From: Paracoccaceae bacterium
GTDB lineage: Bacteria > Pseudomonadota > Alphaproteobacteria > Rhodobacterales > Rhodobacteraceae
DNA: 53,740 nucleotides
Direction of reading: 5' to 3'
NCBI GenBank assembly: GCA_024640245.1
Contig: JAHEFH010000003.1
Coordinates: 1 to 53,740, forward strand
Both the position numbers and the translations under genes were made by a program. This document shows, piece after piece, positions 43,759 to 53,190 of the stretch. Under the pieces are notes generated by a model, which saw only the letters and a program-made list of their open reading frames with translations, ran no database searches and had not been told where the DNA came from. The first letter of the stretch is position 1, and the number at the start of each line of letters is the position of its first letter.

Positions 43759-44739
<981 letters not shown>

Positions 44740-44975: not shown

Positions 44976-45290
44976 ATGAACAATCTTAAAGTAATAGCGT
45001 ATTTGTGCTCTGCAGCAGTATTGGCTGCCTGTTCACAGCAAGAAGAACCTGCCCCGATGGTTATGTCCGCGGAGCCTGTCTACAACAAGATGGGTGACGT
45101 TGTCGGATGTACTGACGGCAGGACTTTTATTCCAGGAACAGCCCCTGCGATAGATCCATGCGCCCCGCCGAGCGAGGAATGCGATCCAAACTTGACCAGT
45201 GCCGCACCCAACTGCCCGCCGCCACGCGACGGAAGGCATGAAGAAGAACCTGATCGCTCGCCCACCGGAGCAGCCGGAACACCGGGCTAA
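44976..45290 (+). CDS. Small proline-rich lipoprotein of unknown function
   Basis: A 104-residue predicted lipoprotein with lipobox VLAAC (C19). The mature part is hydrophilic and rich in proline and acidic residues, with four more cysteines (VVGCTDGR, DPCAPPSEECDPN, APNCPPP) that could pair as two disulfides. It ends DRSPTGAAGTPG. It lies between mdh and the sucCD remnant. Two palindromes are packed into the 60 bases before its AAAGGA site. Not recognised. Confidence 0.65.
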   Translation: MNNLKVIAYLCSAAVLAACSQQEEPAPMVMSAEPVYNKMGDVVGCTDGRTFIPGTAPAIDPCAPPSEECDPNLTSAAPNCPPPRDGRHEEEPDRSPTGAAGTPG

Positions 45291-45521: not shown

Positions 45522-45554
45522 TTGTGATCACACGCAAATATCGTGTGATCACAA
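45522..45554. promoter_or_regulatory. Paired TGTGATCACA operators before the sucA operon
   Basis: TTGTGATCACAC (45522-45533), a 9-base spacer and GTGTGATCACAA (45543-45554) form a 12-bp inverted repeat. Each arm is itself the 10-bp palindrome TGTGATCACA, and the two centres are 21 bp apart, two helical turns. The half-site T-x-GT/AC-x-A fits FadR-subfamily GntR operators. The same palindrome with one mismatch lies in the leader of the GntR gene at 52523-53173, its likely binding partner. Confidence 0.65.
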
Positions 45555-45659: not shown

Positions 45660-45971
45660 ATGAATACCCATGACTATCAGGGCAGGCAGCTTCTGGGGAA
45701 TTTTGGCGCACCTCCATCAATCGCCCGTCTCGTCCCTTATGCGACAGAGGCCAAGTCCACGATCTTGAACGGCGAAATATGCGGCTGCGGCGAACAAGAT
45801 GCCGCGCAATTCGCGATTGACGACGCCCGAAAAGACCGTAAGAAGCCGATCGCGAGCATCATTGCCGGACAATCAGAATCCTCGGGCTCCCGCATGGGCC
45901 ACGCGGGCGCTATCGTCTTCGGCGACAGTCCCGCCGGGCTGGGCGAGGCCGTACTCAAGGCGATTGGATAA
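45660..45971 (+). pseudogene. sucC-sucD deletion remnant (in-frame fusion ORF)
   Basis: A 103-codon open frame in the slot where sucC and sucD are expected. Its first 40 or so residues (MNTHDYQGRQLLGNFGAPPS, then IARLVPYATEAKS) read like the start of succinyl-CoA synthetase beta chain. Its last 45 read like the end of the alpha chain: RKKPIASIIAGQ, then GSRMGHAGAIVFG with the phospho-histidine motif, then SPAGLGEAVLKAIG, skipping about 25 residues. The ATP-grasp domain, CoA-binding domain and almost all of SucD are missing, so no enzyme can result. The frame is open and followed 3 bases later by the next gene. Inference: large deletions collapsed sucCD here; a functional copy must be elsewhere if the TCA cycle runs normally. 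Confidence 0.72.
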
Positions 45972-45974
45972 TTC

Positions 45975-46292
45975 ATGGCATTTAGCAATGCTATCAGTTC
46001 CGGTGTACATCTCAGCGCTACCATATCAGGTCGCGCGTCGCGCCCTGACTACTGGCGGCTTGAGTTGCTCAATTCCTTGTTCGCTTTTTTCGTCATCTTT
46101 CCGGCCTTTGGCCGGTTTCTTCTGCACTTTCTTTCCGCATCCATCAACCGCATGACCACGCCGTCTCCTCTGGCGTTGACGTTCGCCTTGGCGATCTTTT
46201 CAGTCTTATCTATCCCGCTTTTCTTCGTCGCAAAAGCATCGCAAACAGGCACAAACAAATACGGCCCCAACCTAAGTGAGGTGTCCACATGA
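45975..46292 (+). CDS. Shortened DUF805-like membrane protein
   Basis: A 105-residue frame with the family start SGRASRPDYWRLELLNSLFA and a family-like end (KASQTGTNKYGPN). DUF805 proteins normally have four helices and a central RRLHDxGRSGWW motif. Here only about two hydrophobic segments remain and that motif is absent, so the middle seems to be deleted. It starts 3 bases after the sucCD remnant and overlaps the sucA start by 4 bases (ATGA), so it may now serve mainly to couple translation to sucA. It may be a pseudogene or a reduced but functional protein. Confidence 0.55.
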   Translation: MAFSNAISSGVHLSATISGRASRPDYWRLELLNSLFAFFVIFPAFGRFLLHFLSASINRMTTPSPLALTFALAIFSVLSIPLFFVAKASQTGTNKYGPNLSEVST

Positions 46293-49240
46293 CAGACCAA
46301 CCATCTAACGACCAGTTCCACGCCTCCAGCTTCCTGCAGGGCCAGAATGCGGAATACATCGAACAACTGCACGCGCGCTATTCCCGCGACCCGAATGCGG
46401 TCGATCCGGAATGGGCGAAGTTCTTTGCCGGACTGGGCGAGGATTTGGGCGACGTGCAGAAAGAGGCCGCAGGCCCCTCCTGGTTTCGCCCCGACTGGCC
46501 GCCGGTCCCGAATGACGATCTGACGCAGGCGCTCGACGGCCAGTGGTCCACCGATGTGAAGGTCAACGCCGAGAAGATCAAGACGGCCGCGACCGAGCAG
46601 GGCTACGAACTTAGCGGCGAGCAGGTTCAGCGGGCGGTGCTCGACAGCATGCGCGCCCTGATGATCATCCGGGCCTACCGCTATCGCGGGCACCTGGTCG
46701 CCGATCTAGATCCGCTGAAGATGAAGAACGAGAAACCGCATCCGGAGCTCGATCCGAAATACTACGGGTTCGAGGCCAAGGACATGGACCGTCCGATCTT
46801 CCTCGACTACGTACTGGGGATGCAGACCGCCACCATGCGGCAGATCGTCGAAAAGCTGCAACACACCTATTGCGGCACCTTCGCCCTGCAATACATGCAT
46901 ATTTCCGATCCCGACGAGGCCGCATGGCTCAAGGAACGGATCGAGGACTACGGCAAGGAAAGCTTCTTTACCAAAGAGGGCCGCAAGGCGATCCTCGCCA
47001 AGATGGTGGCCTCCGAAGGCTTCGAGAAATTCTGCCACGTCAAGTATTCCGGCACCAAGCGCTTCGGTCTGGACGGCGGCGAGTCCCTGATCCCGGCGAT
47101 GGAGCAGATCATCAAGCGCGGCGGCGCCCTCGGCGTTAAAGAAATCGTCATCGGCATGCCGCACCGCGGCCGCCTGAACGTGCTGGCCAACGTAATGGGC
47201 AAACCCTATCGCGCAATCTTCAACGAATTTCTCGGCGGCAGCTTCAAGCCCGACGAGGTCGAAGGCTCCGGCGACGTGAAATACCACCTCGGCGCTTCCT
47301 CGGACCGCGAATTCGACGGCAACACCGTCCACCTGTCGCTTACCGCCAACCCCTCGCACCTAGAGGCGGTCAACCCAGTGGTGCTTGGAAAGGCGCGGGC
47401 CAAGGGCGACCAGAACGGCGGCGACCGCATGGCGGTCCTTCCGGTCCTGTTGCACGGCGACGCGGCCTTCGCGGGTCAGGGTGTTGTTGCGGAATGTTTC
47501 GGCCTTTCCGGCCTGCGCGGCCACAGAACCGGCGGCACGATCCACATCGTCGTCAACAACCAGATCGGCTTCACCACCAGTCCGCACATGTCGCGCTCTT
47601 CGCCCTACCCGACCGACATCGCGCTGATGGTCGAGGCGCCGATTTTCCACGTCAACGGCGACGACCCGGAAGCCGTGGTCCATGCCGCCAAGGTCGGCAC
47701 CGAGTTCCGCCAGAAATTCGGCAAGGACGTGGTCATCGACATCTTCTGCTACCGCCGCTTCGGGCATAACGAGGGTGACGAACCGATGTTCACCCAGCCG
47801 CAGATGTACAAGAAGATCAAGAAGCAGAAGACCTCGCTGGCAATCTACACCGAACGTCTGGTGCGCGACGGGCTGATCCCCGAAGGCGAGATCGAGGATA
47901 TGAAAACCGTCTTCCAGGCCGAGTTGAACGAGGATTTCGAGGCCGCCAAGAACTACAAGCCGAACAAGGCCGACTGGCTGGACGGGCGCTGGTCGCATCT
48001 GGAAAGCACCGATCCGGAATACCAGCGCGGTAAAACCAGCATCAGCAAGGCTCGGTTCAAACTTATCGGCGGCGCGCTCACCCGACTGCCGGAAAATTTC
48101 ACCCCGCACCGCACGCTCGAGCGTATCCTCGAAACCAAGAAAGAGATGATCGACAGCGGCAAGGGCATCGACTGGGCCACCGCAGAGGCCATGGCCTTCG
48201 GTTCCCTGCTGCTCGAAGGCTTTCCTGTGCGTCTGTCGGGTCAGGATGTCACCCGCGGCACGTTCAGCCAGCGCCATTCCGGTATTCTCGACCAGAACAC
48301 CGGCGAGAAATACCACCCCCTCAACAACATCAAAGAGGACCAGTCGCGCTACGAGGTCATCGACAGCATGCTCTCGGAATATGCGGTGCTTGGCTATGAA
48401 TACGGCTACTCGCTGGCCGAACCCAACGCCCTGACACTCTGGGAAGCGCAGTTCGGCGATTTCGTCAACGGCGCCCAGATCATGATCGACCAGTTCATCT
48501 CGTCGGGCGAGTCGAAATGGCTGCGGATGTCGGGCCTCGTCATGCTTCTGCCGCACGGCTTCGAGGGTCAGGGTCCGGAACACTCTTCCGCCCGTCCCGA
48601 GCGCTTCCTGCAGATGTGCGCCGAGGATAACTGGACGATCGCCAACTGCACCACGCCGGCGAACTATTTCCACGTCCTGCGCCGGCAGTTGCATCGTACC
48701 TATCGCAAGCCGCTGGTTATCATGACGCCGAAGTCCCTCCTGCGGCACAAGCTTTGCGTGTCGAACATGGAGGACTTCACAAAAGGCTCCAGCTTCCATC
48801 GTGTCCTCTACGATGACGCCCAACTGGGGCACTCCGAAACGAAACTGGTCAAGGACGACAAGATCAAGCGCGTGGTCCTGTGTTCCGGCAAGGTGTACTT
48901 CGACCTTCTCGAGGAACGCGACGCGCGCGGCATCGACGACATCTACCTGATGCGCGTCGAACAGCTCTACCCGATCGCCAACATCGCGTTGCGCGAAGAG
49001 CTGGCACGGTTCAAAAACGCCAATTTCGTCTGGTGTCAGGAAGAGCCGCAGAACCAGGGCGCATGGCTGTATTTCGGCCCGCATATCGAACGTATTCTGA
49101 CCGAAATCGGTGCGAAAAACGCCCGTCCCGGCTATGCCGGTCGCGCGCCCGCCGCGGCGCCCGCCACAGGTCAGGCGAGCAAACACAAAGAACAACAGGC
49201 TGCTTTGGTAAACGAAGCCCTCACTCTGGAAGGAAAATAG
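46289..49240 (+). CDS. sucA: 2-oxoglutarate dehydrogenase E1 component
   Basis: A 983-residue thiamine diphosphate enzyme that decarboxylates 2-oxoglutarate and passes succinyl to the lipoyl arm of E2. The N-terminal segment [20 protein letters not shown] is the E2-binding type. [16 protein letters not shown] and the ThDP motif GDAAFAGQG ... NNQIGFTT are present, with [20 protein letters not shown] in the C-terminal half. The ATG at 46289 has GAGGTG upstream and overlaps the previous stop. It is the first large gene of sucA-sucB-lpd. Confidence 0.97.
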
Positions 49241-49241
49241 A

Positions 49242-50747
<1,506 letters not shown>

Positions 50748-50988: not shown

Positions 50989-52377
50989 ATGGCTGACTAT
51001 GATGTTATTGTAATCGGAGGCGGCCCGGGCGGTTATGTCTGCGCTATCCGCTGTGCCCAGCTCGGTTTGAAAACCGCCTGTGTCGAGGGGCGAGAAACGC
51101 TCGGCGGAACCTGCCTGAACGTTGGCTGCATTCCGTCCAAGGCGCTGTTGCATGCCAGCCATATGTACCACGAGACCGAGCATAACTTCGAGAAAATGGG
51201 CCTGATGGGCGGCAAACCCAAAGTCGATTTTGCCAAGATGCTCGACTACAAGAACGCGGTTATCGGCCAGAACACTTCGGGCATCGAATTTCTGTTCAAA
51301 AAGAATAAGGTAGACTGGATCAAGGGCTGGGGCTCAATCCCTTCCACCGGTCATGTGATGGTCGGCAACAAGTCCTTTACCGCTCGTAATATCGTGATCG
51401 CCACCGGCTCGCAGGCCTCGTCCCTGCCCGGCGTCGAGATTGACGAAAAGATCGTCGTCACGTCTACAGGTGCGCTGGAATTACCCAAGATTCCCAAAAA
51501 GATGGTTGTCATCGGCGCCGGTGTCATCGGCCTCGAACTTGGCAGCGTTTACGCCCGCCTCGGATCCGAGGTGACGGTTGTCGAATACCTTGACCACATC
51601 ACCCCCGGAATGGATTCCGAAATTTCCAAAACGTTTCAAAGAACCTTGAAAAAACAGGGCCTTACCTTCATTCTTGGCGCCGCTGTACAGAAGGTCGAAA
51701 AGACCAAGACCAAAGCCAGTGTCACCTACAAACTGCGCAAGAACGACAGCGAGGCGAGCCTTGAGGCCGACGTGGTTCTGGTCGCAACGGGCCGCAAACC
51801 CTACATGGACGGTCTGGGTTTCGACAAGCTGGGCGGCAAGGTGTCGGAACGCGGTCAGATCGAGATCGGCGCTCTCTGGAACACCAATCTGGACGGCATC
51901 TACGCCATCGGGGATGCCGTCAAAGGCCCGATGCTGGCCCACAAGGCCGAAGACGAAGGCATGGCAGTGGCAGAGGTCATGGCCGGCAAACATGGGCACG
52001 TGAACTACGGCGTCATCCCCGGCGTTATCTACACCACGCCAGAGGTCGCCTCGGTCGGAAAAACCGAGGAAGAGCTGAAAGCCGCCGGCGTTGCCTACAA
52101 GGTCGGAAAGTTCAGCTTCATGGGCAACGGTCGTGCCAAGGCGGTTTTCCAGGGCGAGGGTTTCGTGAAGATACTGGCCGACAAGGAAACCGACCGCATC
52201 CTCGGCTGTCACCTGATCGGCCCTTCCGCCGGCGAACTGATCCACGAGATTTGCGTAGCCATGGAATTCGGCGCCTCGGCGCAGGATCTTGCCCTGACAT
52301 GCCACGCCCATCCGACATTCTCGGAAGCCGTGCGCGAAGCGGCACTTGCCTGCGGCGACGGGGCCATCCACGCCTAG
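50989..52377 (+). CDS. lpd: Dihydrolipoyl dehydrogenase (E3)
   Basis: A 462-residue flavoenzyme that reoxidises dihydrolipoyl groups with NAD. FAD motif [19 protein letters not shown]; redox-active cysteines C42 and C47 in [19 protein letters not shown] motif [19 protein letters not shown]; and the interface catalytic histidine in [14 protein letters not shown]. It serves E2 of the 2-oxoglutarate complex and probably the glycine cleavage system too, since no other E3 is in the window. The long gap after sucB, with a hairpin and phased repeats, suggests it may have its own regulation. Confidence 0.97.
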
Positions 52378-52522: not shown

Positions 52523-53173
52523 CTATTGCGCCAGCATTCTCAGTCCTGTCGTCACATCCGCCCGAATTGCCAGCCGCAAACCAGGCTCGTCGCCTGCGTG
52601 CAACGCGGACAAGGCGGCGCGATGATTATCTGATGCGCTCTGTCGTTGCAGACGGGTATAAAGGGACCCCATGGTTGGTCCCATTTGCAGCCAGACCGTT
52701 TCCGCCATCGCCAGAATAGCCGGTGCCTGCGCCCGCAAATAGAGGGTTCGGTGGAACTCGATGTTGGCTCTGATATATCCCACGGCATCCCGCTTGACCG
52801 CCATCTGGTCCACGACGCTGTTGATCCGCGTCAACCGGTCGATCAGCGCCGAGTGCACCCTCGGCAAAGCGCGAGAGGCCAGTTCCGGTTCCAGCAAGGC
52901 GCGCAAGCTGGCCAGTTCTTCGATCCGGTCCATCCCGAGCACGGGAGTGGACACGCGGCCCGTTTTGGAAAGCGTCAATGCACCTTCGGCCGACAGCCGT
53001 CGCACCGCTTCCCGTGCAGGGGTCATGCTGACATTGTACTTTTCCGCTATGCCGCGGATCGTCATGTTCTGGCCGGGCTCCAGCTCTCCGAACATGATTT
53101 CATTCCGCAACAGGCGGAACACCCGCTCGTGCGATGGAATCGTTGGTTCAATATTGCGTTCGCGATCTTGCAT
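52523..53173 (-). CDS. GntR-family regulator, FadR/FCD subfamily
   Basis: A 216-residue regulator convergent with lpd. The N-terminal winged helix (residues of about 12-80) has [20 protein letters not shown] and [20 protein letters not shown], typical of GntR. The all-helical C-terminal FCD domain (about 85-212) has [13 protein letters not shown] and [14 protein letters not shown], supplying two of the usual metal-site histidines; the third is not obvious (AIRADV). FCD proteins usually sense carboxylates. A TGTGATCACG site lies 8 bases before its ATG, and two TGTGATCACA sites precede the sucA operon, so it is a good candidate for control of both. Confidence 0.85.
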
Positions 53174-53179
53174 GAATCT

Positions 53180-53190
53180 TTGTGATCACG
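53180..53190. promoter_or_regulatory. GntR autoregulatory operator candidate
   Basis: TTGTGATCACG contains the GTGATCAC core found twice before the sucA operon, with one mismatch to TGTGATCACA. It lies in the GntR leader immediately before the start, where bound protein would block expression. Scanning by eye, I found this 8-mer nowhere else in the window. Confidence 0.55.

Follow-up and report, generated by a model that had tools for sequence, protein, structure and literature searches.

The open reading frame of 103 residues that lies between mdh and sucA in the window analysed here (the whole stretch of 53,740 bp, from a genome referred to below as G000, with its relatives numbered G001 and onwards) is very probably a relic, left when the sucCD genes of the TCA operon underwent xenologous displacement by the copy of a catabolic (oxalate) island. 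A foreign copy, brought in with oxalate-degradation genes, appears to have assumed the role of the native pair. In displacement of this kind, a native gene is lost once an acquired homologue has rendered it redundant. Here, the incoming copy was phylogenetically distinct, and both relatives carrying the two copies side by side and relatives carrying the incoming copy only were found.

According to this reconstruction, the lineage would have gained an oxalate-degradation island bearing its own sucCD, of a kind that in this analysis otherwise occurs in TCA operons of Rhizobiaceae, and the native pair would have become dispensable because a second, complete synthetase was present in the cell. A large deletion would have joined the start of sucC to the end of sucD and a second one would have taken approximately 20 further codons, with the upstream control region and sucA, sucB and lpd retained. 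The order of events (gain, then deletions) is the probable one, and the island enzyme would now be expected to carry the TCA flux.

The relic ORF and its origin

The features of the locus are as follows:

43777–44739 (+): mdh, malate dehydrogenase, 5′ neighbour, 75–87% identical to mdh of relatives
45523–45532 (no strand): palindrome TGTGATCACA, first operator-like site, at −137 from the relic ATG
45544–45553 (no strand): palindrome TGTGATCACA, second operator-like site, at −116 from the relic ATG, 21 bases on
45660–45971 (+): sucC–sucD fusion relic, 103 residues, in-frame
45660–45758 (+): SucC-derived head of the relic, approximately residues 1–33, of which residues 30–33 are assignable to either side of the junction
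45747–45971 (+): SucD-derived tail, which includes RMGHAGA and a second gap of ~20 residues near 45923/45924
45975–46292 (+): DUF805-like small membrane protein of 105 aa between relic and sucA (PF05656, 27.3 bits, cut-off 25.7)
46289–49240 (+): sucA, 2-oxoglutarate dehydrogenase E1
49242–50747 (+): E2 subunit, which we take to be sucB-like from sequence and position
50989–52377 (+): dihydrolipoyl dehydrogenase, presumably lpd-like, named likewise from sequence and position

The relic begins with ATG and ends with TAA. Alignment placed its residues 1–33 on SucC 1–33 and its residues 30–103 on approximately SucD 206–299, RMGHAGA included; the ~20-residue gap falls directly after RMGHAGAIVFG, and the tail otherwise follows the last 94 residues of SucD. 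The N-terminus reads MNTHDYQGRQLL versus MNIHEYQAKQLL at the start of SucC in congeners. The SucD match was far beyond chance (E = 1.5e-17 in a pairwise search of one congener genome, G020), and profiles built from 38 operonic copies recognised both the SucD part (E = 2.3e-21) and the SucC start (E = 3.2e-5), the search space in either case being 24 translated frames only. Both ends of the ORF were thus matched in the manner of the original prediction, which had described a SucC-like start and a SucD-like end with RMGHAGA. None of the Pfam families ATP-grasp_2, CoA_binding and Ligase_CoA matched the 103 residues up to E = 1. By arithmetic on the alignment, approximately 1.8 kb of coding sequence is absent from the locus, a figure that does not fix the true size of the deletion because the spacer between sucC and sucD is highly variable in length across the loci of 38 relatives (4 to 2311 bp).

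An intact protein family of the same size, the possibility against which the prediction had to be set, was not encountered: there was no full-length match to the relic in 100 other genomes (E up to 1e-3), nor in the 32 other genomes of the window's genus. A scan of named genomes with the SucA N-terminus returned 11 loci (55–68% identity), none from the window's species; nine of the 11 were inspected, and all nine hold full-length SucC and SucD and lack the scar. No intermediate carrying the first deletion alone was found.

Relic and operonic SucD of the genus shared 44–51 of 77 positions (77-column alignment, full rows), compared with 38 of 77 for the genome's own intact SucD and 37 of 77 for the island SucD of G017 and G001. 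Judged by these identities, the relic is derived from the native sucCD of the TCA operon. Columns identical in all 38 operonic rows were then taken as invariant, excluding the island copies as well as G011 and G008, whose SucC is truncated by a contig end or missing there. The relic kept 33 of 45 such columns in SucD and eight of 13 in SucC (12 and five changed, respectively), against 99.8% of SucD columns and at worst 13 of 14 SucC columns in leave-one-out controls. The functional island SucD itself keeps just 38 of the same 45 (seven changed), so the lost columns by themselves are no proof of decay; added to the absence of most of both subunits, they fit a native pair freed from constraint. 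The TAPPGR residues beside the histidine motif have also been lost.

Downstream of the relic, ORFs similar to the DUF805 frame occur between sucD and sucA in three of 38 loci of relatives. Upstream, a small ORF with a lipoprotein-like start (44976–45290, + strand) lies between mdh and the relic and gave a weak, sub-cut-off match to LPAM_1.

The intact sucCD pair and its oxalate island

G000 has one ATP-grasp_2 gene and one full-length SucD, both on contig C108. The pair scored above the curated succinate-CoA ligase cut-offs (557 versus 370 and 431 versus 336) and below that for malate-CoA ligase (486 versus 604), and has an MGHAGA loop and a GEIGG motif, which we take to be the phospho-histidine loop and the glutamate motif, respectively. 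It is accordingly annotated here as a predicted succinate-CoA ligase. A further sucCD copy could be missing, since the assembly is a 211-contig draft of 96% completeness. The best identity of the C108 MurA to congeners was 85%, that of the window SucA 81%; contig C108 therefore fits G000, the divergence of MurA resembling that of other genes of the genome.

The same contig carries frc (formyl-CoA transferase, 696 bits, cut-off 504) and oxc (oxalyl-CoA decarboxylase, 1008 bits, cut-off 557), both above curated cut-offs, which marks the region as an oxalate-degradation island. It also encodes a formate-tetrahydrofolate (formate-THF) ligase (943 bits, cut-off 652), a formyltransferase-like gene below the fmt cut-off (135 bits versus 201.5) and a PanE/ApbA-like protein (23.5 bits, cut-off 22.2), with TctC, a universal stress protein, a GntR regulator and an isochorismatase-fold hydrolase also around sucCD. 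A PanE-like oxalyl-CoA reductase, named PanE2, is known from methylotrophs (M. extorquens). By analogy, the C108 PanE/ApbA-like gene may have oxalyl-CoA reductase activity. ApbA2 of Cupriavidus necator is a homologue of this reductase, and its deletion strain grows poorly on oxalate, according to passages of PMC7486775. The likely role of the island sucCD would be to supply the CoA donor while oxalyl-CoA drains to glyoxylate. Against such a role, for the enzymes concerned, speaks a result given in a portion of PMC3720670, where two assayed oxalate CoA-transferases formed no product from succinyl-CoA and oxalate. The idea that the island SucCD replaces Frc as an oxalate-CoA ligase was rejected, Frc being present in the island.

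Distribution of the two copies and the control region

A sample of 295 genomes of the family, screened at E up to 1e-150, yielded island-type SucD in eight genera other than that of the window; one extra match, in G021 of the window's genus, was an operonic copy. Among the 11 family carriers (eight from other genera plus G000, G001 and G017), both pairs were present, with sucCD beside sucA, in five (G001, G178, G315, G338 and G359), and four had no intact pair beside sucA (G000, G017, G342 and G207). Part of an operonic sucD stands beside sucA at a contig end in G339. For G316 the operonic pair was not readable, sucA lying at a contig end, and one SucD was found in the genome. Profile searches of the mdh–sucA gaps of G017, G342 and G207 revealed no relic.

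Within the genus, sucA was visible in 29 of 33 genomes, and 27 of these 29 had sucD at the same locus, with sucC also seen in 26 (in one partly) and the contig of G008 ending inside sucD. The two exceptions were G000 and G017, which are two of the three known carriers of the genus. Operonic loss in two of three carriers versus none of 26 non-carriers gives p = 0.007 (hand arithmetic, kinship ignored), where the status of the 26 as non-carriers rests on a single SucD match per genome at E up to 1e-8. G000, G001 and G017 were not sisters in the SucA tree (starred forks; 43 rows, without G020, G008 and the named rows L075, L079 and L080), so that island gains or operonic losses occurred more than once.

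Frc exceeded its cut-off in 10 of the 11 family carriers, in nine of them on the same contig as sucCD. G017 has frc and gave no oxc match in the genome-wide search conducted within the genus. G342 had no frc over cut-off genome-wide, and no match to frc, oxc, the PanE-like gene or formate-THF ligase within 13.9 kb around its sucCD; in G316, no oxc match was seen within the 8.4 kb locus. To judge from this gene content, the island-type sucCD of G017 and G342 has outlived parts of the oxalate pathway, which is consistent with the proposed takeover of the TCA step.

Twin copies of TGTGATCACA (up to one mismatch each), 20–21 bases apart, precede sucC in 33 of the 38 operonic copies at distances of approximately 107–159 bases, and in eight of the 33 they stand exactly at −137 and −116, as in the window; four of the remaining five operons have one palindrome and one has none. 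They have also been kept before sucA in G017, G342 and G207, so that, with G000, each of the four genomes lacking an operonic pair retains them. The transcript carrying sucA plausibly opens with the relic as its first frame, given that the twin palindromes stand at native spacing before the relic ATG, and the palindromes may act as operators. At 10 of the 11 island sucCD copies, no TGTGATCACA was found within 400 bases upstream. The sole exception is the island sucC of G017 (contig C4, L108) with one site at −136, which is possibly a sign of regulatory capture of the island pair into the TCA regulon. Regulation shared with the TCA operon is hence visible in G017 only, by this one site.

In the window, a GntR-type regulator gene (52523–53173, − strand) has a one-mismatch copy of the palindrome, TGTGATCACG, at 53181–53190 just before its start, and is a candidate regulator of the suc operon. 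For suc-operon palindromes of this kind, CceR/AkgR are likely candidate regulators; a text search of the literature for the palindrome returned unrelated papers only.

Alternative explanations and related systems

Simple relocation, with the native sucCD duplicated or transferred to C108 and its former copy left to decay, had some initial appeal: an intact pair does exist outside the operon, and a first SucCD tree, rooted at the midpoint and without rhizobial rows, recovered the 11 island-type pairs of the family as one clade (100/100) beside a single group made up of 10 operonic copies from the genus. After addition of seven rows, however, a second tree (36 of the 56 rows at hand) grouped the 11 family copies and two from another family (G625 and G702, with frc and oxc beside sucCD) with TCA-operon sucCD (100/100) of the Rhizobiaceae Sinorhizobium (S. 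meliloti) and Rhizobium and of two further genomes outside the family, apart from those operonic family copies that were included. In line with this, the C108 pair was 88–93% identical to its island counterparts in G017 and G001, and only 64–73% (full-length SucC) and 65–83% (full-length SucD) identical to operonic copies of the genus; the partial SucC of G011 reached 88% over 124 C-terminal residues, a stretch over which the full-length operonic SucC of the genus gave 84–93%. A native pair that was itself of island type is also improbable, as the relic matches operonic copies more closely. Relocation is therefore very unlikely, and of the relocated sucCD suggested by the original prediction, what survives is the existence of an intact pair elsewhere in the genome, a xenolog of another clade rather than the native genes in a new place. 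Replacement by a different enzyme has an equally slim prospect. Succinyl-CoA:acetate CoA-transferase is known to perform this TCA step in other bacteria, e.g. AarC in Acetobacter, and an acetate:succinate CoA-transferase had been proposed for this locus as well. For the PF13336 type this found no support: there was no PF13336 match in G000, G001 or G342 (cut-off 23.7), G017 and G207 stayed below the cut-off (20.9 and 23.1 bits), G316 had two matches above it, and G000 already possesses the intact predicted succinate-CoA ligase pair. An assembly error or binning chimera, for which the fragmentation of the draft into 211 contigs might speak, is the least credible of these accounts and extremely improbable. 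Collapse of the assembly, an artefact that could have mimicked the scar, was rejected as its source because the relic differs by substitutions, spread throughout both of its parts, from every intact copy found, with no close match to any of them. Furthermore, the junction lies well within the 53.7 kb contig, the palindrome spacing is that of native operons, and the congener-like MurA on C108 argues against a chimeric bin.

The relic as a product of displacement could still be a maintained small protein, or a leader frame that couples translation to DUF805 and sucA or avoids polarity, and we consider this unlikely. In its favour, the frame is still open after two deletions, the ATG and its distance from the twin palindromes are unchanged, and the DUF805 frame begins three bases past the relic stop and overlaps the start of sucA by four bases, an arrangement in which an open frame might aid translational coupling. 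In a codon model with 20 of the 38 operonic copies, omega on the relic branch was 0.11 compared with 0.054 elsewhere; a purely neutral branch fitted worse by 13 log units, and a branch with the omega of functional copies fell no more than 0.8 log units short of the free model. However, these values are blurred by the functional period of the gene, which the branch also covers, and a two-phase branch (functional, then neutral) was within 0.4 log units. In addition, omega was similarly raised on the G000 branch of the functional gene SucA (0.12 versus 0.06; 20 rows), so the relic omega says little on the fate of the relic, and the codon models neither dated nor proved neutral decay. Timing by the SucA branch (1.7 neutral changes per codon) left approximately 0.8 neutral changes per codon after the loss, and simulated neutral decay without a stop had a probability of 0.17–0.52 over the tested range (25% at 0.7 and 17% at 1.0), odds to be read in the knowledge that the relic was picked for its open frame. 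The loss of TAPPGR and the absence of the ORF from all 100 other genomes also count against maintenance.

Displacement by an oxalate-island copy resembles xenologous displacement in general, where a horizontally acquired homologue leaves the native gene redundant and lost. The difference is that the acquired sucCD is located in a catabolic island separate from the operon, and that a readable in-frame relic, along with the control region, has stayed at the native site. The kind of event is known; the present case is new, clear and accompanied by intermediates. Genomes with both copies, with a relic, with a clean loss and with parts of the donor pathway gone line up as a readable series for how an accessory catabolic gene can take over a step of central metabolism, and they illustrate that the cycle may be complete even where the TCA operon of a draft genome is not. 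The Rhizobiaceae TCA operon mdh-sucC-sucD-sucA-odhB, as on pSymB of S. meliloti (CP090106), provides a close likeness for the island pair itself (77% identity for SucC and 81% for SucD); when the island SucD was compared with the plasmid collection, the pSymB SucD ranked with the best of the named matches. There, sucCD belongs to the TCA operon, whereas here it belongs to the oxalate island.

Plasmid p402633 of Paracoccus alcaliphilus (frc-oxc-GntR-sucC-sucD, with oxlT nearby) likewise has an oxalate cluster in which a separate sucCD accompanies oxc and a GntR gene, its Frc, Oxc and PanE-like protein being 80%, 75% and 62% identical to those of C108. Unlike the C108 island pair, its sucCD groups in the tree with the operonic copies of Rhodobacterales, and because of this operonic type its recruitment looks independent. 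Succinyl-CoA synthetase genes are thus a recurring part of oxalate clusters. Such recurrence, or takeover of the TCA step, was unstated in the open-licence literature reached by a narrow search, including the available portions of PMC12927642, PMC3720670 and PMC7486775. A broader account can be put forward tentatively, and taken jointly it is doubtful: oxalate islands would repeatedly bring their own succinyl-CoA synthetase, which would repeatedly capture the core TCA step; the native pair would then be lost, the operator region and open leader frame being kept because they serve sucAB–lpd expression, and the captured enzyme would outlive parts of its pathway, as in G017 and G342. As a separate observation, SucCD type and the SucA tree conflict for G032 and G018 (L042 and L044), hinting that sucCD may also have been swapped inside the operon within the genus.
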